This document shows positions 12,670-41,039 of a stretch of DNA of 64,000 nt, piece after piece. The translations under genes were made by a program, and so were the position numbers. A model generated the notes under the pieces. The model made no database searches, had not been told where the DNA came from, and worked only from the letters and a program-made list of their open reading frames with translations. Location: positions 62,001-126,000 of the forward strand of contig JABLXA010000006.1 of assembly GCA_013178415.1 (NCBI GenBank), written 5' to 3'. Numbering within the stretch: position 1 is the stretch's first letter; every line of letters begins with the position of its first letter. The DNA comes from Bacillota bacterium. Its GTDB lineage: Bacteria; Bacillota; SHA-98; Ch115.

Positions 12670-12814
12670 TGTGCCACCCTCCCTTCCCTACATCATATGG
12701 GACCTCGGTCTAAGGTGTTCGCGGTTTTCATCCGTTACCACATTGGAAATATATAACCTGTTTTTGGGTTTTCAGAAAGCCGATGACTTCTAACTCAAAC
12801 CGATCGAATGGTAT

Positions 12815-14734
12815 TTACCAGGCGAATTTAACATCTGTTACAACTGAGAGAGGCACAGGGCCTGGCGGGCCGCCCACAATTTCCACATTTACTGTGCGGC
12901 GCGCGACCTCGCTAACACGCGGCCCATCGCATTCTGTGACCACATCTAGTTCAGCCGGCACTGCACCGCCGTCGCGGAGCACCATCGCCCTTATCCGTGT
13001 GGTGGATGAAGTCACCCCTTCCCCCTGCACCTTCGTAACCACCTGTTGCGTTGTTCGTACCGTGCGCCCGATGAGGATCCTCAAGATAACCAGCACATGA
13101 ACGCTGAGCCTATCCCCTGTGAGCTTGGCCACAACACCTTCTATCTCAGCAGATACTTCCACAGGCGTTCCCTGCATCGCCTCCGGCAGTTCCTCTATGG
13201 CACTAAAGGGAATGTCGTGGCCAATTGAACGCACAATATTGTCATCACCCACAAACTGCACATCTACATGAACTCTGCCTTCTACAAGGATCTTCCCGTT
13301 TAGGGTGTTCCCTTCTATCAATAGAACACGAGCATCAGCGCTCTTGATTTTGATGGCGGGAACCCCAAGCGGTATCAGGCTTTCGGCCAAGATCTGGCGG
13401 CTCACGAAACTTAGCTCGTCAAACACCAAGATGTCATATTCGATACTAACCGGCCCGACCCGCTCGATGATGATCTCGGCCATCACCTGGGCCATTCCCT
13501 CAGCCACGATTACAGGGACCTGTATCAAAACCCCGACAGGATCCAGCACGATCGATGACCTCATCTCTTCAACCACCGTTGCATATATATCTATAACCGC
13601 TTCCTCAGTAACCAATTGTCCGGTTGTGGCCGGATCGAACGCCACACCGGCTACCTCAGCAGTCGCAAAAACGCTGGCAGAGGGGATCGCGCCAGGTACC
13701 TCCACGGAATCGTTAAATGGCACATTGAAAGATTCAGTATAAGTCAGCCCATCTTCTCCAACATAGGTGACATCCTTTGAAAGCATCCCCTGAAGAATCA
13801 CCTTGTCTTGTACCACACGCGCCCTCAGAGACGCCACAGTTGCAGTGATGTCTATTATTTTTGACGCGGGACGTGAAAGCGTGACCTGGGACTCTTCACC
13901 GATTTGGCTCGTTCCCTGCCCGAGCACATGATCCACCAACATGGTAGGGCCTTCCCCTGTGGCCACAGACAGGCTGGACCTCTCAAGGACTTTGATGAAT
14001 ATATCGAAGAGCACTTCCTCAGAGACTGTGCCGCCATCCGGGCTCAGGGTCGCTGCGACATCACGGATCGTTGGCAGGAGATATACCTCCATCCCGGGAA
14101 GCGTGCCTGGTATTTCAGCCATCACAGAGAATGGTACCGTGGCGGTGACATGCCTTGTTGCATCATCTGGCCCGACGTAGAAAATCTGCTTTTCCAGGTC
14201 ACCTGTAACCACGACCTGGCCTGAACGGACAGAAGGAACGAGGTTAGTGGGGGTCACTCGGATCTCGCTGACCTTGATAGCCGGAGAGGGAAGCGCTATA
14301 TCCTGGCTTTCGAGCTGCTGGACGGTTCTTTCCCCCACTACAGACCTGGCAAGAATCAGGGTGCCATATGGATCCTGTGCCACCCTAAACTGCCTGAGAT
14401 CCAAAGCGGTGGCAAATACGTCAATGATAACCTTTTGGAGGATTGCATCTCCACCTCGGACTAGCTCAGTGATGATATTGGTAATCTTAGGTGTCACCTG
14501 GACAGTCATCCCTGGGGCTACGCCCGGTAAGGAGATCATTGCCGAGAATCTCATACTTTCTGGGAAATGATGGACTATATTGTCTTCACCCACAAAAAAG
14601 ACCTGTTTTCTGACGATTCCCTGCACTATGACCTTGTCGGTCATTATATGAGTCCTTATATCTGTAACTTCAGCATGGACTTCCTTTATGGCTATGGCTC
14701 GCATGGGAAGGGGTACCTCTATGACTTGCTGCAC
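12815..14734 (-). CDS. four-domain SPOCS protein
   Basis: About 639 residues from the preferred GTG start at 14734, which has CGAGGGAGGG six bases ahead; the frame is open to a TTG at 14818, but that codon has no ribosome site. Four SPOCS-type blocks follow one another (IVQGIVRKQVFFVGED; VVVTGDLEKQIFYVGPD; ILQGMLSKDVTYVGED; LVEGRVHVDVQFVGDD), each with a PG(x)APGMxV-like loop. There is no LysM, signal peptide or membrane segment. It lies upstream of the membrane-anchored SPOCS gene and downstream of a glycosyltransferase in the same direction. A structural role in the spore envelope is inferred. The last 100 residues are more divergent and may be a fifth, partial unit. Confidence 0.85.
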   Translation of the reverse strand: MQQVIEVPLPMRAIAIKEVHAEVTDIRTHIMTDKVIVQGIVRKQVFFVGEDNIVHHFPESMRFSAMISLPGVAPGMTVQVTPKITNIITELVRGGDAILQKVIIDVFATALDLRQFRVAQDPYGTLILARSVVGERTVQQLESQDIALPSPAIKVSEIRVTPTNLVPSVRSGQVVVTGDLEKQIFYVGPDDATRHVTATVPFSVMAEIPGTLPGMEVYLLPTIRDVAATLSPDGGTVSEEVLFDIFIKVLERSSLSVATGEGPTMLVDHVLGQGTSQIGEESQVTLSRPASKIIDITATVASLRARVVQDKVILQGMLSKDVTYVGEDGLTYTESFNVPFNDSVEVPGAIPSASVFATAEVAGVAFDPATTGQLVTEEAVIDIYATVVEEMRSSIVLDPVGVLIQVPVIVAEGMAQVMAEIIIERVGPVSIEYDILVFDELSFVSRQILAESLIPLGVPAIKIKSADARVLLIEGNTLNGKILVEGRVHVDVQFVGDDNIVRSIGHDIPFSAIEELPEAMQGTPVEVSAEIEGVVAKLTGDRLSVHVLVILRILIGRTVRTTQQVVTKVQGEGVTSSTTRIRAMVLRDGGAVPAELDVVTECDGPRVSEVARRTVNVEIVGGPPGPVPLSVVTDVKFAW

Positions 14735-14925
14735 TTCCAGCCCTCCCTCGCTAAATTGATCGCCACGAATCTTTGCCGCCTGATGGTGGAGATCGGGATG
14801 AAAGACTACCCCGGCCAAAGACTACCCCGGGCGGCGCATTATATACCTGCGCATGGCGGCAGAGAAAAGCGGCAAAGGCATATAAACGCTGATATAAGAA
14901 ACCACAATCCTTCCCTGGCCTAATC

Positions 14926-25059: not shown

Positions 25060-25941
25060 TCATTCCCTCGGGGTCTTGGGGAGCCCTAGCCTGAATTTGC
25101 CTCTCGTTTCAATGCCGCCAATTCCTTTAATGCCTGTGATGGTGCCCTCTATGGCCTCGTAAACATGCACTATGCTGTCAATCGGGGTGTAGGAGACCTT
25201 TTCAGCTACGAGAATAGGATCATAGGCATGGATGAACACCCTCTCAGGAGAACTTGCGAAATTGGCTCCCGCTGCGATAAGGGCTTCATAATGAGACTGG
25301 CAAGCCCCTGCAATGATCACAAGGGCATCTTTGTCGGGCTGAAATCTCCGAGCCTTTACAACGGCTTCCACAAAATAACGAGAGGTGCGATAACTGTCGA
25401 TACCCGCACGTTCAGAGGCCTTCCGCGTCAGAAGCCCATCGTGTCCTGTCAGCACAAGAATCTCGGGCAAGTGAGTCTGAAGTAGCGATGTGATCCGGGC
25501 TGGCTGCTGGTCCTCAGGAACGTATTCCCCGATCACAGGCACATTGAGTTGACGGTAGTATTCAAGGCAGTCCTTTAGATAATCCTTGTCCCCGTCTATA
25601 TGAAGCACCTTCCCCGGGAGTTCAAAAAAATCGTGCCCGGGCGGTGGCTCAGCGCCAGCTCGATAACGAAAAGCTTTCTCCTCGGTTATGCGCCTTAGAA
25701 ATATCTTGCGCGCCGATTCCTTCGACTGCTTTATTAAATCGAGCTTGACTTTCTCTACCTGTTTTGGGTCAACTTTGACCAGGTCCGATAACGGCGCGTC
25801 AGCAAACAGCCTGACATTCAACCCTTTGAGGTGCGCCATCGCCTTTTTCTTTTCACTAGTAAAGATTCTTACCACAGTGAAGAGAAGGTCAGCGCCATAA
25901 GATATCCGACTAACAGTGTCACCCACTGATATCTTCTCCAT
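25060..25941 (-). CDS. yabG: sporulation-specific protease YabG
   Basis: 293 residues. YabG is a mother-cell cysteine peptidase that trims coat proteins such as SpoIVA and SafA and, in clostridia, CspBA and pre-SleC. Signatures seen are the N-terminal SH3-like GDTVSRISYGADLLFTVVRI, LHIDGDKDYLKDCLEYYRQLNVPVIG, LVLTGHDG and IIAGACQSHYEALIAAGANFASSP, which contains the conserved Cys and His. Position between the YkuK/KsgA genes and veg is the standard order. ATG at 25941 follows AGGGG. Together with the SPOCS genes it is good evidence for a spore-former. Confidence 0.94.
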   Translation of the reverse strand: MEKISVGDTVSRISYGADLLFTVVRIFTSEKKKAMAHLKGLNVRLFADAPLSDLVKVDPKQVEKVKLDLIKQSKESARKIFLRRITEEKAFRYRAGAEPPPGHDFFELPGKVLHIDGDKDYLKDCLEYYRQLNVPVIGEYVPEDQQPARITSLLQTHLPEILVLTGHDGLLTRKASERAGIDSYRTSRYFVEAVVKARRFQPDKDALVIIAGACQSHYEALIAAGANFASSPERVFIHAYDPILVAEKVSYTPIDSIVHVYEAIEGTITGIKGIGGIETRGKFRLGLPKTPRE

Positions 25942-27682: not shown

Positions 27683-28756
27683 TTAATCGGGCTCAAGAAC
27701 ATAAACTTTGACTCGCCGCCTGCCAAACCTCAGACATTCCTCAACGGTCGGGAAGAATAAGTCTATTTTATATCCTTTGATCGCCGCGCCCACATCTGCC
27801 GCAAGGGCCGGACCATATCCTTCCACATAAAGTCGCGTCTTGAGAGGAATTATATCAGGATCCACCGCCACCACGCCACGCTGCGCCTTAACTCCTATGG
27901 CAGTATACCCGTCCGCATACTTGCCGCAACTCCTGGGCCCCGGCTCAAAGGCCGTCGCAATCATGTAGTACGAATCGCGGTATCTATACGTTCCACGTGA
28001 GGTCACCAGAGTTCTGAGGGGATTCCTGGTCCCGTAGGCAATTACCTCATGAACAGGCGGGACTATGACCTTCGCGGATACGATCTCCTCTTTTATCTTT
28101 TTTCCATTCTCGTAGGTTACCTTAACCGACTCTTCCCGCAACCCGTCGACTCCCTTGCTCAACACCCTTGTCCTTCCCTTATCCAGGTGTGAGTCAGGGC
28201 GCTTTTCCGTCCTGAAGGGCACTACCACTCTTCTGGTGACGACTTTCTGGGACACCCTTGTTATATCTATCTTCATCCCAGGCGCCACAACAGAATCTAG
28301 TGCCGGGCTTATCTGATCCATAGGACCAAGTGAAATGCCCTCCTTTGAAAGGACGGCCCTTACCGTCTTCGCTGTGGTCCTTAGATCACGTTTTGCCCCG
28401 CCAACTGTCAAAATCACCGGAACGGCACGTTCTATGACGATCTTCATGCCGTCCTTCAGCCTTTGATCCTGAGATGGGCTAACTTCATCTCCAGGGGAAA
28501 GACTCACCCGAGCCTCTTTCAGCACATCCCCTACAGTTGCTCCTATCGTTGTCCTTTCAATGGCGGTCCCGTCGACTTCTATTGTGACATCCTTGCGGAA
28601 CCATATGAACCCTGCTGTTGCAATCACAACAAGGACGAGAGTAAGGATTGCGAAAAACAATCCTCCTCGCCGGACTTTCACATTGGGGAATGTCGCCCAT
28701 CTGCCCCAGGCCTTCCACCCGAACCATCGCGCTACTGGGGGCTTACTTCCCATCAC
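27683..28756 (-). CDS. yabE: YabE-like cell wall protein: DUF348 repeats, G5, 3D domain
   Basis: 357 residues. One transmembrane segment (about 31-52, GLFFAILTLVLVVIATAGF) anchors an extracellular part with two DUF348 ubiquitin-like units (TIEVDGTAIERTTIGATVGDVL and VILTVGGAKRDLRTTAKTVRAVL), a G5 domain (about 180-255) and a C-terminal 3D domain with its conserved aspartates (VAVDPDIIPL, AADVGAAIKGYKIDLFF). The 3D domain is related to lytic transglycosylases and resuscitation factors (RpfB, Sps). The family acts in wall remodelling during growth resumption. ATG 28756 is preceded by AGGAGG; a TATAAT -10 lies about 100 bases upstream. Confidence 0.9.
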   Translation of the reverse strand: MMGSKPPVARWFGWKAWGRWATFPNVKVRRGGLFFAILTLVLVVIATAGFIWFRKDVTIEVDGTAIERTTIGATVGDVLKEARVSLSPGDEVSPSQDQRLKDGMKIVIERAVPVILTVGGAKRDLRTTAKTVRAVLSKEGISLGPMDQISPALDSVVAPGMKIDITRVSQKVVTRRVVVPFRTEKRPDSHLDKGRTRVLSKGVDGLREESVKVTYENGKKIKEEIVSAKVIVPPVHEVIAYGTRNPLRTLVTSRGTYRYRDSYYMIATAFEPGPRSCGKYADGYTAIGVKAQRGVVAVDPDIIPLKTRLYVEGYGPALAADVGAAIKGYKIDLFFPTVEECLRFGRRRVKVYVLEPD

Positions 28757-29675: not shown

Positions 29676-30082
29676 TCAGTATAGCCTCACTAAGCTATTC
29701 CAGTTCTTTGACTCTTTACTAACATATCTATTACATTCCTTACACAGATTTTATTCTTTCGACAAAGATGGCCGAATTCCTGCTTGCGATTTTCAGCCAG
29801 TGGAATGCGATGGAATTCCTGCAGATTGATGGAACACCGTAGAATCTCTCCCAAATTGTATGGGAATTCCACGTTCGTTTTTGATGAATGCGGACCCTGG
29901 CAATCCGGCGCGAGCACCAGTTCGATGCGAGAGTAACATAGCGGCACCAGGCCCAGCTTGAAAGTGTCCGCCAACCCTTGCTCTAATAGATTTTTTCCAG
30001 TATAATGAAATCACCAGGAGGGAGGGCAGGTTTCCCGGGATTCCTGGATCCGGAGGCAATTAAGGTCCGCGGGGGTTTCGCA
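29676..30082. other. intergenic region with GGAATTCC-type motifs
   Basis: No credible gene. Several GGAATTCC or GAATTCC words occur (29773, 29812, 29862 area), and short frames look random. Probably the left edge of the accessory island. Confidence 0.4.
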
Positions 30083-30442
30083 ATGGGTGGGGACATCACG
30101 TCGAAAGAATTCCGTAGATTAAATAGTGTTATCAGAAGAAAGCGTCAGGAAAGAACAGAGGAGCTCATCAGTAAGGCATTTCAGAAGGCACAAGCTATTG
30201 CTTCTCTGCTGAAGAACCGCTATGGCGCCGAAAGAGTCTTCCTGTATGGATCACTGGCTTGCGGCGGATTTAGAGAAGGATCCGACATCGACATCCTGGT
30301 GGAAGGTTTTCAGGGTTCTTATTGGAAGATGTATACAGAAGCTGAGGACCTGGCTTCGCCTTTTAATGTAAGCATAGCGCTCTACGAAGACGCCGCGCCA
30401 TCCCTCCGCGAGGCTGCGCTGAAAGGCGGGATGCTCTTATGA
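30083..30442 (+). CDS. MntA-like nucleotidyltransferase antitoxin
   Basis: 119 residues from ATG 30083 (GCGGGGG about 10 bases ahead); the frame is open from 30005, but the extra residues look non-coding. The minimal nucleotidyltransferase motif is RVFLYGSLACGGFREGSDIDILV, giving GSx(10)DxD, the metal and NTP site. MNT proteins paired with HEPN proteins act as antitoxins that AMPylate the toxin. The gene overlaps the HEPN gene by four bases (ATGA), the usual arrangement. Confidence 0.82.
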   Translation: MGGDITSKEFRRLNSVIRRKRQERTEELISKAFQKAQAIASLLKNRYGAERVFLYGSLACGGFREGSDIDILVEGFQGSYWKMYTEAEDLASPFNVSIALYEDAAPSLREAALKGGMLL

Positions 30443-30963
30443 TGCTCGAGGAATACCTTGTCGTTGAAGGCAGGATCAATAAGGAGAAAGAGAACCTCCT
30501 CGCATTGGAAAAAGAGCTTCGAGATTATGGTTTATACCCAACTATCACTGCTCGCGCAATAGGAGGATTCTCCCTGGAAGATGCGGCAGCTATCAGAATA
30601 ATCGGTTCAATTCTTCATGACTATTACACGGCCATAGAAAACATACTAAGGACTGTAGCCAGCAGGATTGATAAAAGCATTCCCACCGGGGAGCAGTGGC
30701 ATAGAGAATTACTTGAACAAATGACGCTTGCGATCCCGGGGGTACGCCCCCAGGTCCTCTCAACTGAAACCGCACGAGAGCTCAACGAATATCGAGGTTT
30801 CAGGCACATTTTTCGGAATCTATACGGCTTTACCCTTTCCTCTAGAAGAGTAGCTGACCTACTTAGTCGTCTTCCCGCCATCAACGAGGCTCTCCAGCGC
30901 GATCTGGATATCTTCCAGCAGAAGATGAGGGAGTTTTACGGGATAGGAGAGGGTCGGGCATAG
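30439..30963 (+). CDS. HepT-like HEPN-domain ribonuclease toxin
   Basis: 174 residues, helical. The catalytic HEPN segment is ELNEYRGFRHIFRNLYGF, with the Arg and His of the Rx4-6H motif and the Tyr that is the target of AMPylation in HepT. The N-terminal helices and IIGSILHDYYTAIENIL fit this subfamily. As a free protein it would be an RNase toxin; the overlapping nucleotidyltransferase neutralises it (type VII toxin-antitoxin). Start at 30439 overlaps the antitoxin stop; a second ATG follows immediately. Confidence 0.82.
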   Translation: MMLEEYLVVEGRINKEKENLLALEKELRDYGLYPTITARAIGGFSLEDAAAIRIIGSILHDYYTAIENILRTVASRIDKSIPTGEQWHRELLEQMTLAIPGVRPQVLSTETARELNEYRGFRHIFRNLYGFTLSSRRVADLLSRLPAINEALQRDLDIFQQKMREFYGIGEGRA

Positions 30964-31102: not shown

Positions 31103-31861
31103 TTAGAATCTGTAGCTTGCGCCGAGGTAGATGCCGGATGTGGTAAGGGTGGAGGTATTGTTAGCCTCATCCTTACTAGTTACAGAGACATATTTGTATC
31201 CGCCATCAACATAAAGATTGGGGACTACCTTCACGGCATATCTCACACCGCCATTGAACTCGACAGCAGTCCCTTGCTCCTCGGGACATGCGGTACCATC
31301 AATCGTCGGCCTGAGTGTAAGGGAAGAGACATATCCTCCGGAAACATAGCCCTCGAGCCCCTCCATAAGAACTGCAGTGGCTTTGGCTCCGACCTTGAAT
31401 CCTGAGGCATCAAACGACATCTTCGTAGGGGCGCCGGCCTCAGCTACCAATTCGCCCTCTATAGCGCTACTAGCCATGAAATATCCAACTGCCGGGGATA
31501 TGGAGAATACCGGATCAGAGTAAAGCTTATATGCCGCATCGATCATGGTGTATGACCCGGAGGCCTTTGACTTGTTCCACTCGACGCTCCCGCCGGGACC
31601 ACTAATGGTGAGATTTCCTGTACTGGAAATACTGGAGTATGCGAAACTGACTCCGAACTTCTCAGCAAAAGCAAAGTCCCCTGACACTGAAAGTCCGCGA
31701 CCGGGAATAGTGATCGCATATGTTTCCGCGTCCGCTTTTAGTTCCAGCTTCCACGTGCTCGGCATCCAATATGTACCAGATACCGTCCCCTGAGCCATAG
31801 CTGCGGAGGCAAGGCCCATCACACACAAAGCGACAACAGATAGAATTGTCAATTTCTTCAT
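31103..31861 (-). CDS. predicted outer-membrane beta-barrel protein
   Basis: About 252 residues from ATG 31861, where a Sec signal peptide begins (MKKLTILSVVALCVMGLAS, cleavage after AMA). The mature part is a run of amphipathic strands with aromatic ends: GLSVSGDFAFAEKFGVSFAYSS, GFKVGAKATAVLMEGLEGYVSGGYV, VEFNGGVRYAVKVVPNLYVDGGYKYVSV. It ends in GIYLGASYRF, the pattern of a C-terminal beta-signal (alternating aromatic/hydrophobic, last residue Phe) used by BamA. There are no Cys in the lipobox position and no anchor. Two Cys occur in one loop. An alternative is a surface-exposed beta protein of a monoderm, but the final Phe argues for a barrel. Confidence 0.75.
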   Translation of the reverse strand: MKKLTILSVVALCVMGLASAAMAQGTVSGTYWMPSTWKLELKADAETYAITIPGRGLSVSGDFAFAEKFGVSFAYSSISSTGNLTISGPGGSVEWNKSKASGSYTMIDAAYKLYSDPVFSISPAVGYFMASSAIEGELVAEAGAPTKMSFDASGFKVGAKATAVLMEGLEGYVSGGYVSSLTLRPTIDGTACPEEQGTAVEFNGGVRYAVKVVPNLYVDGGYKYVSVTSKDEANNTSTLTTSGIYLGASYRF

Positions 31862-32278
31862 CAGGTAACCGCGCTCACTCACCGCCCATATAGCCTATGC
31901 AAGGCGGTCAGCAGCACGACCCCCCCTTTCCTATTTGGCCTTTTGGCCTAATTAACCCACATGGTTTATATTTCATGCAGTTCTCTTCATTCTCATTTAC
32001 CAAGGCGCACTGCACTCTACAGTTAACGCCACCGCCAGACCTGAAACCTGTTAAAGTCCGAGTACCACCTCCCGAGGCATCAGATCATAAATGCGCACCA
32101 GTAATGAGGGGCCATCTTATGGAACAGTTTGCTCGAAGCCCCCATCAAAACCGCCCCAATCCAATAGGTGCAACCATTTAAATCTATTCGTCTCCTCGGG
32201 GGAATTTCCTGCCGTAGGGAAATATTTAACAAGATTCTCTAAAAATCACCACTGATCACGCAGTCATTTCATGACACC
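31862..32278. other. intergenic region
   Basis: No gene, repeat or clear hairpin recognised. Upstream region of the beta-barrel gene and downstream region of the first caspase gene. Confidence 0.4.
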
Positions 32279-33526
32279 TCATTGAGGAAGCTTCACAAAA
32301 TCCGCCGGCGGGACCCGATAGATTGGCCTGTTTGCCCCAGTTTCAGGCCATATCTGAGGAGTCTGTACCTCCCCAGTCCTGGGATCATAGGTATAGTTCA
32401 TAACCCTCGGCTTTGCATAGTTGAATGCCTCCTGTGCTGTGATTATGCCATCAAGGTTGGAATCGGCGGGATAGCCCGCGGTCTTCGCAATGCCCTCACA
32501 GAAGAAGTAAGAGAATACGCCGTGATCAAGGCCCGAATATTCATTGGACACCTCAGTGTCGTTGCTCGCCGTGATGACCACATATCCAGCCTGATTGAGA
32601 TCTCGCGCAAGAGCGGTGAATCCCCGCTTAGCTTTCTTGCCCTGGAAGAATGGAAGGTATTTATACATTCCGCCGCTATAGCAACTATCGAATATGAAGA
32701 CTTTATTCTGTCCAGGGATTTTGGCAACCCACGAGGTCAGTTCGTCATCAGTGATTATTCGAGAAGGATCAGATGTCGCATCAGACGGCGCGATAAACTC
32801 ATCCTCTTCGCCCGGAATATTCGTGGTCTGCCCGCCATGGCCAGAGAAAAACATCAGGAAATGATCCTGCGGCTGCATTTTCGCCGCGATTGCATCAATG
32901 GCCGCCTTTATTTTCGCTTTTGTCGCCTCTTGATCCTTCAGAATATTGGCATCAGCGATCCCGGCATAATAGTTATTCTGATATAAGGTCTTCCACATAA
33001 GCTCTGCGTCTGCAACCGCATAGCTCAAGTCTGGGCTTCCCTCGGTGCCTGGATTGTAAATCTCATAAGGATCGTAATTATTGATCCCCACAAAAAGATA
33101 ATAAAACGCCCCTATCCTCGGATAGCCTCCATTCACCCACGTATCCGCCCCAGACCTCACCACTACACCACGGATCGTGAGAGGTTGATACCGTGGGTGC
33201 GCAATGTAGACTGTATATGTGCCAGGTGAAAGGCTTAGCTCGAAATAGCCTCTATCGTCCGTCCATGTTGTCTTGCCCCCAGCTGTGACCGTCGCCCCAA
33301 CAAGCCCCCCCGTCGGTGGAGCCGGGATAACCTCCAATCTGCTCCCCTCGACAAGTTTCATCTTGGGACGAGCCCCCGGAGGGAGATCCTTGGCATTCGG
33401 ATCAGCTGTCACATAACCAAGTATCCGTCCAGGGAGTGATGGCGCGCCGCCGAAACATCCCGTAAGAAATACAAATGATAGAGCACATAGCATTACTGGC
33501 AAAAGGTACCTAAATATCCTTTTCAA
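32279..33526 (-). CDS. caspase-family (C14) lipoprotein with CarboxypepD_reg and EF-hand
   Basis: 415 residues from TTG 33524-33526, which has TGGAGGTGAT eight bases ahead. The lipoprotein signal peptide ends in FLTGC (C24). A carboxypeptidase-regulatory-like beta domain (about 35-130: GLVGATVTAGGKTTWTDDRG, PGTYTVYIAHPRYQPL) precedes the caspase fold (FYYLFVGINNY, YAVADAELMWKTL), with catalytic His in MFFSGHGGQ (H230) and Cys in IFDSCYSGG (C282). An EF-hand-like loop, DSNLDGIITAQE, follows at 355-366. Prokaryotic metacaspases/orthocaspases are often calcium dependent and cleave after Arg/Lys. Here it would be exposed outside the membrane, not in the cytosol. Confidence 0.88.
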   Translation of the reverse strand: MKRIFRYLLPVMLCALSFVFLTGCFGGAPSLPGRILGYVTADPNAKDLPPGARPKMKLVEGSRLEVIPAPPTGGLVGATVTAGGKTTWTDDRGYFELSLSPGTYTVYIAHPRYQPLTIRGVVVRSGADTWVNGGYPRIGAFYYLFVGINNYDPYEIYNPGTEGSPDLSYAVADAELMWKTLYQNNYYAGIADANILKDQEATKAKIKAAIDAIAAKMQPQDHFLMFFSGHGGQTTNIPGEEDEFIAPSDATSDPSRIITDDELTSWVAKIPGQNKVFIFDSCYSGGMYKYLPFFQGKKAKRGFTALARDLNQAGYVVITASNDTEVSNEYSGLDHGVFSYFFCEGIAKTAGYPADSNLDGIITAQEAFNYAKPRVMNYTYDPRTGEVQTPQIWPETGANRPIYRVPPADFVKLPQ

Positions 33527-33622
33527 CCATATCACCTCCAAGGTTTTCTGTTCTCCATAATATAATACGGATACCACATAAGTATTAAGGGGATCAAATG
33601 CAAAAAGCCCCCGCCATAGATA

Positions 33623-33660
33623 GAAAAGCCAGCGCCGTTGAATTTTCAGCCGACGCCGGC
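33623..33660 (-). terminator. terminator after the YezD-like gene
   Basis: Minus strand: GCCGGCGTCG pairs with CGGCGCTGGC (two wobble pairs), followed by TTTTC. It lies about 75 bases past the YezD-like stop and ahead of the caspase gene. Confidence 0.6.
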
Positions 33661-33735
33661 CATGATCATCTATCAGGCGATATCCCGCTTGTGAACATCT
33701 CAGGCTGCATTCCAACGCCCACTACATAATTGAGA

Positions 33736-33990
33736 TCATCTTACCCCAGCCGCCTCACCTTCCACTCGTTTACTGCATTGACTGAACCGAACCTTCTCAG
33801 TCGTGTCTATCTGGATGATCTCACCATCCTGCACATAAATGATAACCTGACCATATTTCAGCCTTGATACAGTCTCACAAATAAACCTTAACACTCCCCT
33901 CCGGAGTCTAGGCCGCGCCATCTCCTCTTTGGGAGGCCTCAGATCCTCCAGACGGGATTCCAGCTGCGCTCTGAGCGCGCTTTCACCCAT
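33736..33990 (-). CDS. YezD-like small protein (DUF2292)
   Basis: 84 residues from ATG 33990, which has GGGGGTGGGG just upstream; the frame is open for 14 more codons. The core FICETVSRLKYGQVIIYVQDGEIIQIDTTEKVRF matches DUF2292 (YezD). The family is small, with two or three strands after a helix; its role is not known. Here it sits between the first caspase and the subtilase genes, an unusual place. Confidence 0.75.
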   Translation of the reverse strand: MGESALRAQLESRLEDLRPPKEEMARPRLRRGVLRFICETVSRLKYGQVIIYVQDGEIIQIDTTEKVRFSQCSKRVEGEAAGVR

Positions 33991-34176
33991 ATATGCCCCA
34001 CCCCCAATACCATGATGACGATGGGAAATCAATCATGAATCAATGGGTGGGTTTCGCGGCGTCATCATCAGAAACATGCCATCCAATGAGTCAAACTGGT
34101 GTGGCCATCGAAGTCCTCTTTATCCTCCTAACAAACGCCACGTCAATGGCATCAACACCTGCCAGGAAAATCAAAG

Positions 34177-36180
34177 CTACCTCGCTTCCAGCATTCGGAG
34201 CAGCCTTGCTGTCTCTCTGCGCATTGATTCAGATGAATAGCCCATCAATTGGAGCTTGATACTCGCCGCAACAGACTGTCCTTTACCTAGATTGATGGGC
34301 CCGACAGATGAAGCATAGTCTCCGTCATCCAATAAACGATCCCCATTCACATCTAGCCAGGCGACAATATATCGTTCCGGCCCCTCGCCGACCCGCCCGA
34401 TATCAAATGTGCGCCCATCACTCGGAAATACCATGCCACTTACTGGCGTCCCATCTTTGCCGACAACCACAATCCTGGTTTCCGTGATTTCAGCATGATT
34501 GATAGCAGCATATGCGTTGAGGATGCCGTAACCTGATTCGTCGTCCCGTCCCGTCGCAGATATGTCTATGGCGGTATTTCTGAGGATACGCCTTATCATC
34601 TGAGGATCGGGGGAAATCCCGCAGGCCAGCATGAGGGCCACAACTCCTGACACATGAGGGGCTGCCATCGACGTTCCTTCTGCCCAGCCGAAACCCAATC
34701 TTGGTTGACCACTCGTAAGGTCGAGTATGGTGCTCAAGATCCCGAGATCGGCCCCGGATTCATAATCGCCGCCGGGCGCGACAAGATCAATCTCAGGACC
34801 ATGATTTGAATACCACGCTACTTCGTTCGATGCATTACTTGCTCCAATGGCGATTACATCAGGATCACAGGCTGGATACAAGACATGACCTGCGCCTTCA
34901 TTGCCGGAGGCTGCAATAAGAATAGCCCCGCGCTGCACAGCATAGTCAATTGCCTGCGACATTTCCTCAGGCTCTGATGAAATATCGCCCCCGAGGCTCA
35001 AGTTGAGCACCTTCGCCCCATGATCCACAGCCCACATGATGGCGGAAGCAACATCGCTCAGGTAGCCGAAACCGCCATTGGCGCTATCCAGCGCCCTTAT
35101 TGGCATCATCAAAATATTCCAGGCTACCCCGCATGTCCCGATACCGTTATTCCCCACAGCGCCAATGATCCCAGCTACATGCGTTCCATGGCTCGCCCAA
35201 TATACCCCCGGAAGCCCGGGATCCGTCGGATCGTCATCTCCCCCTTGCTCAGGGTTATCAACAAAATCCCACCCATTCATCAGATTTCCCCTGAGATCAG
35301 GATGGTTCGACGCAACCCCCGTATCTATCACCGCCACTATGACAGACCTCGCGCTTGTGATCCTATTCCATGCCAGGGGCAATCCAATGGCCGGCAAATT
35401 CCACTGGTCATGATATGCACCATCATTTGGCTCAATAGGAAACAGTCGCCCCCGTGCCACCCCCAAAGCCTGGCATACCGGGTCCAACTCTGCTTTTTCT
35501 ATATATGGAGAAGAAGCCAGCTCCTCAAGGAATTGGGAAGGTGTTTTTGCAGGGGGGATATAGACAATCAGCCGGTGTATGATGGTGTTAACGAAATGCC
35601 GGGTAGCTCCAGTCGTTCGAACGATCGAGGAAATAACCCTGGAGTCAAGAAGATCACGCGAACGACGAAGCCTCACTATGACCCTCTGCGGCAGCGGCTG
35701 ATCTTCAGGGCTTACTCCAACCTCCACAGGTCTAAGAGACCTTCTGCCCTGTCTTACAGCCGCTGATGACCCGTAAGAGACGAAATTCACCGTCCCATAA
35801 ATTCTGCCGCCTCCATCCTCTGCTTCGCCGACTGTCAGGAAGATATCTTTAACTAGCGTCTGGCCATGCCCTACATACTCGGTTGAACTTTCCGCAATAT
35901 GGCCCGGCGCGGAAACCTCAAATTGCGCTATTCCGTTTGATGCCGTTACTCCACTGAGCGAATAAAACCCCTGACTATCGGTCATTCCCACCTTTCCATT
36001 TACGGTGACTTTGGCGCCCGAGATTGGAACCCCAGTCCCCGCGCTTAAAACCCTGCCAGACACATCAAAGATCACCGGATGCGTCCGGCTGTCACCAAAA
36101 CACCCGCTCAGAAGGAAAGCCAAAGACATATAAAAGAATAATGCGCGCCATCGCCTCAATACCTTACGGTATCGCGCCAA
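34177..36180 (-). CDS. subtilisin-family serine protease lipoprotein
   Basis: 667 residues from TTG 36178-36180 (AGGGAG nine bases ahead). The lipobox is FLLSGC (C27). A CarboxypepD_reg-like domain (about 38-115) and a propeptide-like region (about 160-240, QRVIVRLRRSRDLLDSRV) precede an S8 catalytic domain: Asp in VAVIDTGVASNHPDL (D286), His in SHGTHVAGI (H331), oxyanion Asn in ASGNEG (N427) and Ser in GTSMAAPHVSG (S504). The tail includes a calcium-loop-like DVNGDRLLDDGD. Thermitase and fervidolysin-type enzymes look similar. Likely membrane-anchored and extracytoplasmic; the propeptide suggests self-activation. It shares lipobox and beta domain type with the two caspase neighbours. Confidence 0.9.
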   Translation of the reverse strand: MARYRKVLRRWRALFFYMSLAFLLSGCFGDSRTHPVIFDVSGRVLSAGTGVPISGAKVTVNGKVGMTDSQGFYSLSGVTASNGIAQFEVSAPGHIAESSTEYVGHGQTLVKDIFLTVGEAEDGGGRIYGTVNFVSYGSSAAVRQGRRSLRPVEVGVSPEDQPLPQRVIVRLRRSRDLLDSRVISSIVRTTGATRHFVNTIIHRLIVYIPPAKTPSQFLEELASSPYIEKAELDPVCQALGVARGRLFPIEPNDGAYHDQWNLPAIGLPLAWNRITSARSVIVAVIDTGVASNHPDLRGNLMNGWDFVDNPEQGGDDDPTDPGLPGVYWASHGTHVAGIIGAVGNNGIGTCGVAWNILMMPIRALDSANGGFGYLSDVASAIMWAVDHGAKVLNLSLGGDISSEPEEMSQAIDYAVQRGAILIAASGNEGAGHVLYPACDPDVIAIGASNASNEVAWYSNHGPEIDLVAPGGDYESGADLGILSTILDLTSGQPRLGFGWAEGTSMAAPHVSGVVALMLACGISPDPQMIRRILRNTAIDISATGRDDESGYGILNAYAAINHAEITETRIVVVGKDGTPVSGMVFPSDGRTFDIGRVGEGPERYIVAWLDVNGDRLLDDGDYASSVGPINLGKGQSVAASIKLQLMGYSSESMRRETARLLRMLEAR

Positions 36181-36411
36181 TATGGACACCCTCCCTGTGA
36201 GATCATTTTCGGCACCGTCCCGCTGCGCCGTATGCCGCCATATATCATCACTGTAGAGAAATCCGACCATTAGCATGATAGCTACGCATTATTCGACATT
36301 TTCCTGTGAAATCCCTTCAATGCCAATTCAATTCCAGGCGTCAAGGATCATGTATAATACCTCGATCCGTCCTACCCTCCTATATCGGCCATGTTCCGCC
36401 TTGACCTTTGA

Positions 36412-37686
36412 TTAATACCGGTATATGGCCACATCGCCTCCCGATGCGGGCCACATTTGGGGATCCTGCCTTACGCCCATGCTGGCGGCAGTTTGCTGCG
36501 TAACCCGCCTTGCATATTCAAATGCCTCTCGGGCGGTTATGATCCTATCTCCATTTGTGTCAGCCGCGCGAACGCCGCCCGGACCGGACCTGTTTATCCC
36601 CTGAATAAGGCTGCTAGTGAAGATCCCTGAGGAGCCATTTTCATATGAATCTTGATTGTCATTGCTTGCCATGAGCACCACATACCCCGCGATATTGAGG
36701 TCCCGGGCAAATGTAGATAATTTCGGCATGAACGGCCGAATGGGAGCGCCTCCTTGCTGGGCGCGGGCGTTTTTGACCATTCCTCCACTTCTGCAGCTGT
36801 CGAAAATCAACACCACATTCCTGCATCGGCTTCCAGAAAGCCATTTTTCGAGCTCATCATCGGTGATGAGGCTGCTCGCATCTGTCGGGGACCCATCATA
36901 TGGCGCAATGAATTCATCCAAGGCATCCGGCTCAGAGCCAGGCATCTGCCCGCCATGTCCAGAAAAATATATCATGATATAATCCTGAGCTGAGGCGCGA
37001 GAGGCCAGATCCGTGATGGCGGACCGGATGGCTGCCTTGGTGGCCCTTGAGTCATATAGAGCCGCTGGTTCCCCGGCAAGACCATTTGTCGTAGAGAAGG
37101 TGCTATACATGGATTGCGCATCAGGCACCGATCCATTCAAGTTGGGCACATATAGGTAATTATTGATTCCGATGAATAGATAATGAAATGCGCCGACGCG
37201 CGCCTCCCCTACGGTAATAGTCTTCCCTGCCTTGACCTCAACCCCATGTATGCTGACTGCCATATAATCGGGATGGCTAATTGTCAGCTCATATGTGCCA
37301 GGCTCCAGGGACTGGATCGCGAAATAGCCATTTCCTTCGCTGGTGGCAGTATATGAAGCCCCGGTGCTGCTGGTTGCCAGGATAGTTGCTCCCCCCAATG
37401 GCGAGTAATCGTCGAAAGTGACCGCATATTTATGAACCAAGAGAGAGCGTGATCCTGTCTTACCATCGGCCCCCCGCCCTATGGGCGTTGGGGCATAAAC
37501 ATAGCCCGCTATGGCTCCATATCTGGGTGTCGCCCCGCCCTGAGGCGGAACAGAGCTATCGCCTTGCTCAGGGGACCCGGGGCCGACGCTGACAACCCCG
37601 CAACCTGATAGCCCAAGCAAAAGCATCAGCCCGATTAGAACGGTCGCATAGCGCAGAAATTTGGCACGAAAGCTGCTACTTTTCAT
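36412..37686 (-). CDS. caspase-family (C14) lipoprotein with CarboxypepD_reg and EF-hand
   Basis: 424 residues from ATG 37686 (GGAGGG six bases ahead). The signal peptide ends in GLSGC (C29). Order of parts is the same as in the other caspase lipoprotein: Pro-rich linker, beta domain (about 95-155: PLGGATILATSSTG, PGTYELTISHPDYMAV), then the C14 domain with FHYLFIGINNY, catalytic His in IYFSGHGGQ (H244) and Cys in IFDSCRSGG (C298). DTNGDRIITAREAFEYA is an EF-hand-like loop at 376-387. The two are clearly paralogous, separated by the subtilase and YezD-like genes. It may be the older member of the pair, but this cannot be decided here. Confidence 0.88.
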   Translation of the reverse strand: MKSSSFRAKFLRYATVLIGLMLLLGLSGCGVVSVGPGSPEQGDSSVPPQGGATPRYGAIAGYVYAPTPIGRGADGKTGSRSLLVHKYAVTFDDYSPLGGATILATSSTGASYTATSEGNGYFAIQSLEPGTYELTISHPDYMAVSIHGVEVKAGKTITVGEARVGAFHYLFIGINNYLYVPNLNGSVPDAQSMYSTFSTTNGLAGEPAALYDSRATKAAIRSAITDLASRASAQDYIMIYFSGHGGQMPGSEPDALDEFIAPYDGSPTDASSLITDDELEKWLSGSRCRNVVLIFDSCRSGGMVKNARAQQGGAPIRPFMPKLSTFARDLNIAGYVVLMASNDNQDSYENGSSGIFTSSLIQGINRSGPGGVRAADTNGDRIITAREAFEYARRVTQQTAASMGVRQDPQMWPASGGDVAIYRY

Positions 37687-37857
37687 CTTCAACCCTCCGC
37701 ACGAAAAAATGGAAATCACCCCTGGAGATCTTTCCAAATGTTGGATAATCCCCAAAAACCCTTCTGCCATATCATTCTTATGATTACATTTCTTTGCGGG
37801 GGTTGAAGAGTCCTTCCATGAATTCCAAGGTAATATATGGAATAGACACTATCTGGC

Positions 37858-38640
37858 TCAAATGCTCAAAGAAAGGCGGGGCGCAAAAGCCGCCATAGTA
37901 TTCTGAACAGTAAATCTGGCAGCATCTTCGAAGGAAACCCCGCGCAGGCGCGCGAGTTCCTCCACTATATACCTGACAAATGCCGGTTCATTTCGCTGTC
38001 CTCTAAATGGAGTAGGGGCAAGATAAGGGCAATCTGTCTCGACCAGCAGTCTTTCTTCAGGCAGCGCTGCCGCTATCTCTTTGGGCCTGCGGGCATTCTT
38101 GAAGGTAAGCGGCCCGGCGAAGGAGATATAAAAGCCCATTTTTATACATTCTCTGGCCATCTCGAGGCTACCCGAGAAACAATGCAGTATTCCGCCGTTT
38201 TCTCCCGCTTTCTCGTGCTTGAGAATATCCATGGTGTCGCCGTGCGCATCGCGGTCGTGGATGATCACAGGAAGCCCGAGTTCATGGGCCAGGCGGAGTT
38301 GTGCAAGGAAGAACTCCTTCTGGAGATCACGAGGCGACAACTCGTAGTAGTAATCCAGGCCTATCTCGCCGATCCCGAGCACTTTTTGATCAGAAGCGAG
38401 ATCTGCCAGGCGATTTATGGCATCTTCAGGCGCGTCCTTCACCTCCTGGGGATGTATGCCGATGATGGCATATACCTCCTGGTGCTGCCTTGCGAAGCGA
38501 ACAGCCCATTCCGAGGATGGAATATCACAGCCGACGGTGATTATTGCCCCGACACCACTCTCTTTCGCGCGCAGGAGAACATCTTCCCTATCCGCGTCAA
38601 AATCGCTTTGGTCAAGATGAGCGTGTGTATCCACTATCAT
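37858..38640 (-). CDS. tatD: TatD-family metal-dependent DNase
   Basis: 260 residues, standard length, from ATG 38640 (GGAGG eight bases ahead). Metal ligands are in VDTHAHLDQ (H6, H8), GEIGLDYYY (Glu), PVIIHDRDA (His), GGILHCFSGS (His) and VETDCPYL (Asp). TatD enzymes are TIM-barrel deoxyribonucleases/deaminase-like hydrolases with 3' exonuclease activity. In Firmicutes the gene normally precedes yabE; here a 9-kb island separates them. Confidence 0.94.
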   Translation of the reverse strand: MIVDTHAHLDQSDFDADREDVLLRAKESGVGAIITVGCDIPSSEWAVRFARQHQEVYAIIGIHPQEVKDAPEDAINRLADLASDQKVLGIGEIGLDYYYELSPRDLQKEFFLAQLRLAHELGLPVIIHDRDAHGDTMDILKHEKAGENGGILHCFSGSLEMARECIKMGFYISFAGPLTFKNARRPKEIAAALPEERLLVETDCPYLAPTPFRGQRNEPAFVRYIVEELARLRGVSFEDAARFTVQNTMAAFAPRLSLSI

Positions 38641-39119
38641 GAAATGATCCTCCAATTCTGTAGTATCCCACAATACCAAAATGGATGCGCTGGCGCTGTG
38701 GCGCGCAGATGGCCAACTCTAGAGCCGCAAGGACCTTCTGCATCTCTAGGTTGAATCAGAAAGAGTCTGCGAAATGGAATTTCACGATTTCGCCCCCCTT
38801 AAAGTTACGGTCAGGGAAAGCGCTATGCATAGTCTCGCCGTTCTCCAGCTCCAATATATGTCACCGTTTCATTGTGCGCAATCCCCAAAAATAGAACCTG
38901 GATCGACTTAAAGATTAGCCTTTGGCGGGCTCGGCCTTTCTGAGTTATTGGGTAGGTCATCATTCTTCGCTGGGTTATTTGGTAGATCATCATGCTTTGC
39001 TGGCGCCAGTCAGATCGATATGAATATCTGGAAGTATATGACATTAGAAGGAGTATAACTATTGCAAATTGAATATTTAATTGAGAATATCCATCAGATA
39101 AGGGGAGGTATAGTGTCAC
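38641..39119. other. intergenic region with a 30-bp tandem duplication
   Basis: No gene. Two diverged 30-bp units (38941-38970 and 38971-39000, TGGGTTATTTGGTAGATCAT type) are followed by an AT-rich stretch at 39005-39100 that is likely to hold the promoter of the solute-binding protein gene. No good hexamer pair could be fixed. Confidence 0.5.
38941..39000. repeat. 30-bp tandem repeat, 2 copies
   Basis: Units 38941-38970 and 38971-39000 differ at about seven positions and carry the shared words TATTTGGTAG / TATTGGGTAG and TCATCAT. Confidence 0.7.
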
Positions 39120-41039
39120 ATGTGGTGTAAAAGGCTTCATGTGGGTCTCCTGTTGATGGTTGCGCTTTTGGTTTTAGTCGGTCTATCATCGTCTGCGGCA
39201 ACGACTTATAAAGAAGCCCCCATGCTCACTGAGTTGGTCAAACAAGGCAAACTCCCGCCTGTGGAAAAAAGGCTACCCGAGGAACCTCTCGTTATCAAAC
39301 CTATTGAGAAAATAGGGAAATATGGTGGCACCCTGAGGACAGCGACGCCAGAGCCCAACAGCTGGGGCAATGACGGAGCGGCACATATCAGGCTCCCTTA
39401 CCTCCTATGGATGAATAGAGAGTTCAACAAGGTGATACCTTATCTGGCCAAGGGATATGAATTCTCTGCCGATATGAAAACCCTTACTCTCCATCTTCGC
39501 AAGGGAATGAAATGGTCGGACGGTCATCCCTTTACGGTGGAAGATATCCTTTTCTGGTGGGAAGATTTCATCCTCAATGATGAGCTTACCCCCATCAAAC
39601 CGAAAATATGGATGCCTGGAGGGAAGCTTGCCCAATTTGAGAAAGTGGACGATTATACTCTGAGGATCAAATTCGCGGTTCCTCACAGACCAATCCTCTC
39701 CTATCTTGCATATTTCGGCTCGATGCAGCAGAATTTCTACTTGCCAAAGCATTATCTGACAAAGTGGCATATAAAGTATAACCCTGATGCCGAAAAGCTG
39801 GCCAAGAAAGAGGGATTCGACGCCTGGTACAAGGCCTTTTTGTTCCACCGTGACATTACTCCGGCTCAACAGGATGTCAATCTCCCAACATTGAGCCCAT
39901 GGATGCTGGAAAGGCGAACGACAAGCAGAAGCGTTTATGTCCGCAACCCATATTTTGCTGTAGTAGATACTGCTGGAAATCAGCTTCCATATATTGACCG
40001 GATCACAGCCGATGTCATAAGCGAACGTCAAGCGATGCTTGTGAAGCTCATGGGCGGTGAGCTAGATTATGCTGGGATGCTTCTTGAATTGCCCGATTAT
40101 CCTGTGTTAATGGAGAATAAAGATAAGGGTGGCTACAGAGTTCTATTATGGCCTAGCCCCGTTCCTGCAGAGATAGCATTCGGTTTCAATCTAACCCACA
40201 AAGATCCGGTGCTTCGCAAGATCTTCCAAGACGTAAGGTTCAGACGGGCCATGTCCCTTGCGATAAATAGAGAAGAGATAAATGAGGCTGTCTTCTTGGG
40301 TCAGGGAGAACCCATGCAGGCCACCGTCCATCCGAGCTGCAGCTTCTTCAAGGAAGAATGGGCCAGAGCATATGCTGACTATAATCCCAAGGAGGCCAAC
40401 AGGCTACTCGATGAAATGGGCCTCAAGCGAGGGAAGGACAATTACAGGTTGCGCCCCGATGGCAAGCCACTGATTGTCACTGCTGAGTATTCAGCGACCC
40501 TGGCATTTGCGAGAGAAGCCGTTGATCTGATACGCCATTATTGGGAAGCTGTCGGAGTCAAAGTAGCAGTCAAAGAAGACGAGAGAACCCTCTATACGAC
40601 GCGAAAGGACGGGAATGAATTGGATTGCGGGTTCTGGCACACTGACAGGATGATGGAATTTCGGGTCAACCTGCCAGGACTTACGAAATATAATCCCAGG
40701 AGTGAAATTGGCTGGGCTGTGGACTGGGGGCTCTGGCTGGATACAAAGGGCGAATCCGGAGAGGAGCCATCCGGCGAATGCGGCAAACAGTTCATGGAGT
40801 TCATGAATTCCATGGATGAATGGTATAAGACAACATCTGATCAGAAGTACAAAGAGCTTGCCCAAAAGATCTGGGATAACCAGGCGAGGAATCTCTGGGT
40901 CATAGGCACCGTTGGACTTCCCAAGCGACCCATAGTAGTCAGAAACAATATAAAGAACTTCCCTGAGAAATGCTATTGGGGCGACGACACTTCATGGTGG
41001 CTCGCCGCCGATGGGATCCAATGGTATATAGAAAAATAG
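39120..41039 (+). CDS. family 5 extracellular solute-binding protein
   Basis: 639 residues. A signal peptide (about 1-27, LHVGLLLMVALLVLVGLSSSAAT) precedes an SBP_bac_5 fold: KYGGTLRTATPEPNSWG, LHLRKGMKWSDGHPFTVEDILFWWED, VRFRRAMSLAINREEINEAV and YRLRPDGKPLIVTAEYS. The family binds peptides or oligosaccharides for ABC import. No cognate permease or ATPase gene is adjacent, so it is an orphan binding protein in this window. No lipobox Cys is seen after the signal region, so the mature protein may be periplasmic or released. ATG 39120 follows GGGGAGG. Confidence 0.9.
   Translation: MWCKRLHVGLLLMVALLVLVGLSSSAATTYKEAPMLTELVKQGKLPPVEKRLPEEPLVIKPIEKIGKYGGTLRTATPEPNSWGNDGAAHIRLPYLLWMNREFNKVIPYLAKGYEFSADMKTLTLHLRKGMKWSDGHPFTVEDILFWWEDFILNDELTPIKPKIWMPGGKLAQFEKVDDYTLRIKFAVPHRPILSYLAYFGSMQQNFYLPKHYLTKWHIKYNPDAEKLAKKEGFDAWYKAFLFHRDITPAQQDVNLPTLSPWMLERRTTSRSVYVRNPYFAVVDTAGNQLPYIDRITADVISERQAMLVKLMGGELDYAGMLLELPDYPVLMENKDKGGYRVLLWPSPVPAEIAFGFNLTHKDPVLRKIFQDVRFRRAMSLAINREEINEAVFLGQGEPMQATVHPSCSFFKEEWARAYADYNPKEANRLLDEMGLKRGKDNYRLRPDGKPLIVTAEYSATLAFAREAVDLIRHYWEAVGVKVAVKEDERTLYTTRKDGNELDCGFWHTDRMMEFRVNLPGLTKYNPRSEIGWAVDWGLWLDTKGESGEEPSGECGKQFMEFMNSMDEWYKTTSDQKYKELAQKIWDNQARNLWVIGTVGLPKRPIVVRNNIKNFPEKCYWGDDTSWWLAADGIQWYIEK

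Follow-up and report, generated by a model that had tools for sequence, protein, structure and literature searches.

A cluster of predicted lipoprotein proteases, including two caspase homologues, at an exchangeable slot upstream of yabE in diderm Bacillota

In a 64,000-nucleotide stretch of a Bacillota genome (GenBank assembly GCA_013178415.1, contig JABLXA010000006.1, positions 62,001 to 126,000; hereafter the window), we found an island of three predicted lipoprotein proteases, two metacaspase-like caspases of family C14 (caspases A and B) and a subtilase of family S8, at a site upstream of yabE where most assessable genomes of the same class also encode exported proteases. The catalytic class at this slot swaps among C14, S8, C11 and M30 while the front end of the proteins, a lipobox mostly followed by a CarboxypepD_reg domain, stays. 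We read the island as a cassette in which endopeptidases anchored at the envelope complement one another in specificity and would serve a diderm member of the Bacillota in protein scavenging or turnover, an interpretation to which we give about an even chance.

The genes of the island lie on the minus strand in the order, from right to left, tatD, caspase A, S8, a DUF2292 gene, caspase B and an outer-membrane beta-barrel gene (Table 1). Protease starts were set by purine-rich ribosome-binding sites, at ATG 37686 for caspase A (its upstream-most in-frame ATG lies at 37770), TTG 36180 for the S8 protein and TTG 33526 for caspase B, and with each refined start a lipobox cysteine ends the signal peptide. 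Pfam searches identified C14 and CarboxypepD_reg domains in caspase A (7.4e-23 and 3.8e-13) and caspase B (3.7e-19 and 9.7e-10), where the C14 scores of 81.9 and 69.8 bits lie above the cut-off of 21.4, and S8 (1.9e-58, 198.5 bits) and CarboxypepD_reg (1.6e-8) domains in the subtilase. Together with the invariant catalytic residues described below, these results confirm what an earlier, sequence-only reading of the window had described, namely two caspases, a subtilase and a beta-barrel at these positions, with all three proteases sharing a lipobox and a CarboxypepD_reg domain across two catalytic classes; its gene list omitted the DUF2292 gene that lies between S8 and caspase B. Since the only two C14 genes of the 3.57-Mb genome and three of its five CarboxypepD_reg genes sit here, the island is not a product of chance.

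The island occupies a slot between metS-tatD and yabE-rsmA-yabG, which allowed comparison across the class; for the relatives, many of them fragmented metagenome-assembled genomes, genes came from a simple open reading frame (ORF) picker and lipoboxes from pattern matches. Of the 13 assessable class genomes (four more were not assessable), 11 have an exported-protease gene no farther than 10 kb upstream of yabE, compared with an expectation of 0.24. The genomes are not independent; by family, the linkage holds in two of three, for which the same rough model gives P about 0.001. In the sister genus (G001), blast comparisons showed the same flanks, with TatD and caspase A (63% identity) on contig C78, and caspase B (46%), the barrel (57%), a radical SAM gene, YabE and YabG on contig C3; we infer the join of the two contigs from synteny. 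In place of the window's S8, the next gene beyond caspase A encodes there an M30-like HExxH metalloprotease with a lipobox and CarboxypepD_reg domain, related to lugdulysin (7bb8; 6e-15) and of a rare kind (5 of 398 genomes), and no S8 of the window type was found in the G001 genome. For the family designated f3, the proteases upstream of yabE are C14 and C11 in G005, G009 and G014 (also in G004, at about 10-11 kb), S8 and C11 in G006, and S8 with a BsuPI-like lipoprotein in G007, G011, G015 and G016. The C11 lipoproteins belong to the clostripain family, whose studied members include fragipain, PmC11 and globupain; like the caspases they are of clan CD, have a presumably basic P1 preference, occupy the same slot and carry the lipobox-CarboxypepD_reg front end, but they are C11 rather than C14, and no C11 was found in the window genome. 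Among the genes that separate yabE from the f3 proteases is one for a YkuD L,D-transpeptidase that carries peptidoglycan-binding domains, a hint of envelope work.

In two genomes of family f2 the site is empty of proteases: the order is MetRS-TatD-barrel-YabE-RsmA in G003 and MetRS-TatD-barrel-YabE in G002. Because both keep the barrel without proteases, the barrel is an older neighbour of yabE and not part of the protease set; a role for it as a secretion partner was rejected as unsupported, given the same f2 arrangement.

The juxtaposition of a lipobox C14 gene with a lipobox S8 gene, whose absence from other genomes the sequence-only reading had named as a refutation, was found again in G127, a genome of another family and class. 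On one contig (locus L130), C14 and S8 lipoproteins, both with CarboxypepD_reg, follow each other on one strand and in the window order, 225 bp apart by called ORFs; the S8 lipobox depends on a CTG start. Among about 32 lipoprotein C14 loci no other C14-S8 adjacency was seen besides this one and that of the window, and no further pair was found in the 12 genomes of G127's class. Rough Poisson estimates, which depend on assumed partner numbers and windows, are 0.002 for two C14-S8 adjacencies and 1e-5 to 1e-4 for four independent pairings with any exported protease. As a separate observation, lipoprotein C14 genes in relatives are unusually often near or across contig ends (G127:C117, G127:C159, G001:C3, G002:C133, G114:C35, G234:C82, G176:C45 and G248:C35), as might happen where repeats or strain variation interrupt assembly.

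For the caspases, the catalytic dyad His272 (in SGHG) and Cys326 (in DSC) is invariant in 11 homologues, and a profile of 11 relatives matched metacaspases in the PDB (AtMC4 at 2.4e-20, Yca1 at 7.9e-19 and GSU0716 at 6.2e-17). The AlphaFold model of caspase A, built from three sequences, is weak (mean predicted local distance difference test score 60) and too weak for reading domain arrangement or active-site blocking, yet its best match was still a metacaspase (7qp0, 3e-8). Also invariant are Asp217 and Asp324, which align with what we take to be the S1 acids of metacaspases, and both caspases are therefore predicted to cleave after Arg or Lys. The calcium site of the metacaspase p20 region is partly conserved: the ITDDE-like acids are kept and Asp304 is invariant, while the next position varies, and most aligned sequences have Lys or Asn where metacaspases carry an acid seven residues after the catalytic Cys. 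The island caspases share with bacterial metacaspase-like C14 proteins (orthocaspases such as GSU0716, 3bij) the C14 fold, the His-Cys dyad, the S1 acids and a C-terminal EF-hand-like loop, and their best solved relatives are the metacaspases AtMC4, Yca1 and TbMCA2; they differ in being predicted to be exported and lipid-anchored behind a CarboxypepD_reg spacer, and in being clustered with proteases of other classes. Membership in the EACC1-associated caspase subfamily was rejected, as scores of 63 and 53 bits fall far under the cut-off of 140.

The sequence-only reading had also proposed that all three proteases share an EF-hand-like acidic loop. Acidic loops are indeed present, but they are of two unrelated kinds. 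That of the caspases lies in the C-terminal part of the caspase domain and occurs also in cytosolic C14 proteins of G049 and G349, so that we rejected calcium activation as a special trait of these caspases; the S8 loop, WLDVNGDRLLDDGDY, with the pattern WLDVNxxxxDxGDY, belongs to a separate C-terminal domain of the subtilase. The reading's statement that caspase homologues are usually cytosolic overstates the case: such proteins from prokaryotes were surveyed in 2012 in a study that reported possible signal peptides and extracellular domains, predicted a membrane or extracellular location for part of them, and listed 23 operons with proteolysis domains (PMC3501461).

The lipobox-CarboxypepD_reg-C14 architecture was found across several families of the phylum, and in a search of genome contigs with caspase A the single relative found was G001. 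A recent tandem duplication of caspases A and B is not supported, as the two have separate orthologues in G001 and the backbone of the tree is poorly resolved. Three lipoprotein C14 homologues in f56 have lost the catalytic Cys (L134:8908-10143, LDANYSG; L138:9007-10248, LDVAYAA; L140:912-2054, LDVAYAK) and are by their sequences putative exported pseudo-caspases that keep the scaffold. The same front end also occurs without a recognised protease domain (L155:4747-6747 on G000:C26 and L156:3256-5313 on G001:C4).

In the subtilase, the triad and oxyanion Asn (Asp318, His363, Asn459 and Ser536) are invariant among aligned homologues. The window S8 groups in the tree with solitary S8 proteins of f3 (92/87), that of G127 with f63 (95/96), and that of G006 with BsuPI-linked S8 proteins (98/94); the G006 and BsuPI-linked proteins have a lipobox and no clear CarboxypepD_reg domain. 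Because these are different clades, S8 joined clan-CD lipoproteins separately in three lineages (G000, G127 and G006), and inheritance of C14 and S8 as a common pair with G127 is not supported. Dentilisin of Treponema denticola (PrtP/PrcA/PrcB) is likewise an envelope S8 lipoprotein encoded with other lipoproteins, it has a role in nutrient acquisition and is the closest functional precedent for an S8 held at the envelope (PMC8167434). The partners differ, however, being C14 proteases here and PrcA/PrcB there, and membership was rejected on a PrtP equivalog score of 126 bits against a cut-off of 300. Two further S8 arrangements were seen in relatives. In f3, a small lipoprotein with a BsuPI (proteinase-inhibitor-like) domain comes after an S8 lipoprotein (L055:5028-7909, L057:13988-16416, L058, L089-L091, L093-L095, L204, L205 and L207; Pfam 2.5e-22 for the BsuPI domain of the G004 copy), possibly an anchored protease with its own anchored inhibitor. 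In G162 (L230:5931-14910), the gene for a CarboxypepD_reg S8 lipoprotein precedes one for an M6 metalloprotease (1494 aa, CHU_C domain), after which comes a PorV-like gene, and a radical SAM gene, like yabE's neighbour, lies two genes upstream.

Table 1. Genes of the protease island and its flanks, in window coordinates
Feature	Coordinates	Strand	Remarks
Caspase A	36412..37686	-	lipobox LSGC, CarboxypepD_reg, metacaspase-like C14, His-Cys dyad, C-terminal EF-hand-like loop
Subtilase (S8)	34177..36180	-	lipobox LSGC, CarboxypepD_reg, propeptide-like region, S8 catalytic domain, C-terminal domain
DUF2292 (YezD-like) small protein	33736..34032	-	between S8 and caspase B
Caspase B	32279..33526	-	lipobox LTGC, CarboxypepD_reg, metacaspase-like C14; longest ORF to 33715
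Outer-membrane beta-barrel	31103..31882	-	OMP_b-brl 4.7e-10 (Pfam)
TatD	37858..38679	-	flank of the protease slot, metS-tatD side
YabE/RpfB-like protein (DUF348-G5-3D)	27683..28756	-	constant landmark downstream of the protease slot
YabG peptidase (U57)	25060..25941	-	marks the conserved metS-tatD-yabE-rsmA-yabG region

Around the island, an orphan family-5 extracellular solute-binding protein (SBP_bac_5, 1.9e-64; 39120-41039, plus strand) is divergent from tatD, with no transporter genes beside it among the ORFs read; this peptide-type binding protein hints at uptake. Between the barrel and the radical SAM gene lies a plus-strand pair encoding a nucleotidyltransferase and a HepT-like (HEPN) protein (30005-30963), likely a toxin-antitoxin module and not seen at the site in G001. 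Farther away, at 517-2103 and 10630-14818, inspection by eye identified large SPOCS/DUF3794-like repeat proteins, one with LysM, amid glycosyltransferase genes, a probable spore-coat or surface cluster. Scans for promoters and terminators gave sites no more numerous than in shuffled sequence.

While the genes, domains, lipoboxes, catalytic residues, recurrence, and the conservation and exchange at the slot were read from sequence, we infer from them lipidation, location, activity, specificity, substrates and physiological role. Because Omp85 is encoded in the window genome (as in 6 of 6 genomes tested), we take the organism, an uncultured relative of spore-forming bacteria, to be diderm, with two membranes. 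Each protease would be exported by Sec and then presumably lipidated at the lipobox Cys, with the CarboxypepD_reg beta-domain acting as a spacer that holds the catalytic domain off the membrane, in the periplasm or on the cell surface. There the metacaspase-like pair, with its predicted Arg/Lys preference, and the subtilase, a presumably broad enzyme made as a zymogen, would cut proteins in complementary fashion, most likely to break down proteins outside the cell or in the envelope, either for turnover or to supply peptides for uptake. Since the slot keeps exported proteases in most of the class while their catalytic class changes, the pattern suggests that the shared need is anchored proteolysis at the envelope and not one specific partner. 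Several observations weigh against such a cassette. Intergenic gaps among the protease genes run from about 230 to 650 bp and do not prove an operon; the caspases of G002 and G003 stand alone elsewhere in their genomes, which shows that clustering can be dispensed with; in other families, a protease neighbour is missing from most lipoprotein C14 loci; the position of the M30-like gene between both caspases in G001 depends on the contig join; and the loss of Cys in f56 means that a C14 scaffold can have a non-proteolytic role.

A proteolytic cascade, in which an anchored protease strips its partner of the propeptide or spacer and so sets off a calcium-gated burst of surface proteolysis (for example, an Arg/Lys-specific caspase activating an S8 or M30 zymogen, or S8 trimming the caspase), seems rather unlikely to us, although the S8 protein does have a propeptide-like region (the homologous region in G127 matches a Fervidolysin_NPro-like domain at 2.2e-4) and clan-CD lipoproteins do stand beside S8 proteins of different clades in three lineages. 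A cascade should keep its partner and S8 is not kept, so that a cassette of complementary enzymes fits better: S8 is absent from G001, G002 and G003, is replaced by the M30-like protein in G001 (across the contig gap), and is not adjacent to the C14 of f3, whose partner is C11, while C14 itself is kept. Nor does the S8 alignment show an obvious conserved basic cleavage site where propeptide and catalytic domain meet. Many subtilases process themselves, which also counts against a cascade. The cyanobacterial orthocaspase MaOC1 is self-processing as well (PMC5756287) and was counted on the same side. We nevertheless retain a cascade as a rival because trans-activation, through cutting after Lys or Arg, is possible among C11 relatives, which may need calcium (PMC10315481). 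Its boldest form, a repeatedly assembled envelope machine of diderm Bacillota in which a lipid-anchored clan-CD protease (C14 or C11) regulates or activates an exchangeable second anchored protease (S8, M30 or C11) at the fixed rpfB/yabE slot, and thus a caspase-led cascade outside the cytoplasm, we consider improbable. The candidate system of the sequence-only reading is accordingly partly supported: the recurrent linkage of exported proteases of several classes stands, but the dedicated caspase-subtilase cascade is not supported.

The location of the slot inside the metS-tatD-yabE-rsmA-yabG region, and the YkuD transpeptidase in f3, would also fit a part in sporulation, germination or lysis of the mother cell, with the cassette remodelling the envelope or spore in concert with RpfB/YabE, YabG and L,D-transpeptidase; we regard this as unlikely, as the region holds mostly housekeeping genes, so that position alone says little, and the closely related f2 caspases sit elsewhere beside corrinoid-protein genes. 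That the slot is simply a tolerant insertion site whose proteases do not work together is very unlikely in our view. The toxin-antitoxin pair was also inserted there, orientation and spacing vary, and not all class genomes could be counted, but exported proteases recur far above expectation and pair across classes in independent lineages. Least probable is a role in defence, predation or programmed death, with an extracytoplasmic caspase module killing the cell or its neighbours. Such a role for extracellular bacterial metacaspases, in death or fratricide, has been proposed (PMC3501461), the HepT-like/nucleotidyltransferase pair adjoins the island, and generic PADLOC models for caspase (4.5e-25) and subtilase (3.1e-25) match. 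These matches cover catalytic domains only, however, and PADLOC found no complete known anti-phage system at the island; the EACC1-associated family scores far below cut-off, the proteins are predicted to be exported and are without sensor or NTPase domains, and G001 lacks the toxin-antitoxin pair at the site. For defence, predation or lysis, all suggested by the sequence-only reading, we found no evidence.

Overall, the arrangement seems undescribed although its parts are of known kinds: the literature searched, with incomplete coverage and hence as weak evidence of novelty, gave no description of a lipoprotein C14 with CarboxypepD_reg or of mixed cassettes of this kind. Bacterial caspase relatives have mostly been discussed as cytosolic cell-death or stress enzymes, whereas the present case concerns an entire subfamily with predicted export and membrane anchoring, whose genes are grouped with those of other protease classes and stay at a single slot even as the catalytic class there is exchanged. 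For uncultured diderm Bacillota, yabE offers an easy landmark for more exported proteases. If our preferred reading of an anchored protease cassette is right, caspase homologues would gain a plain extracytoplasmic role in envelope proteolysis, and there would be a natural setting in which to ask if other surface proteases can be switched on by one of clan CD.

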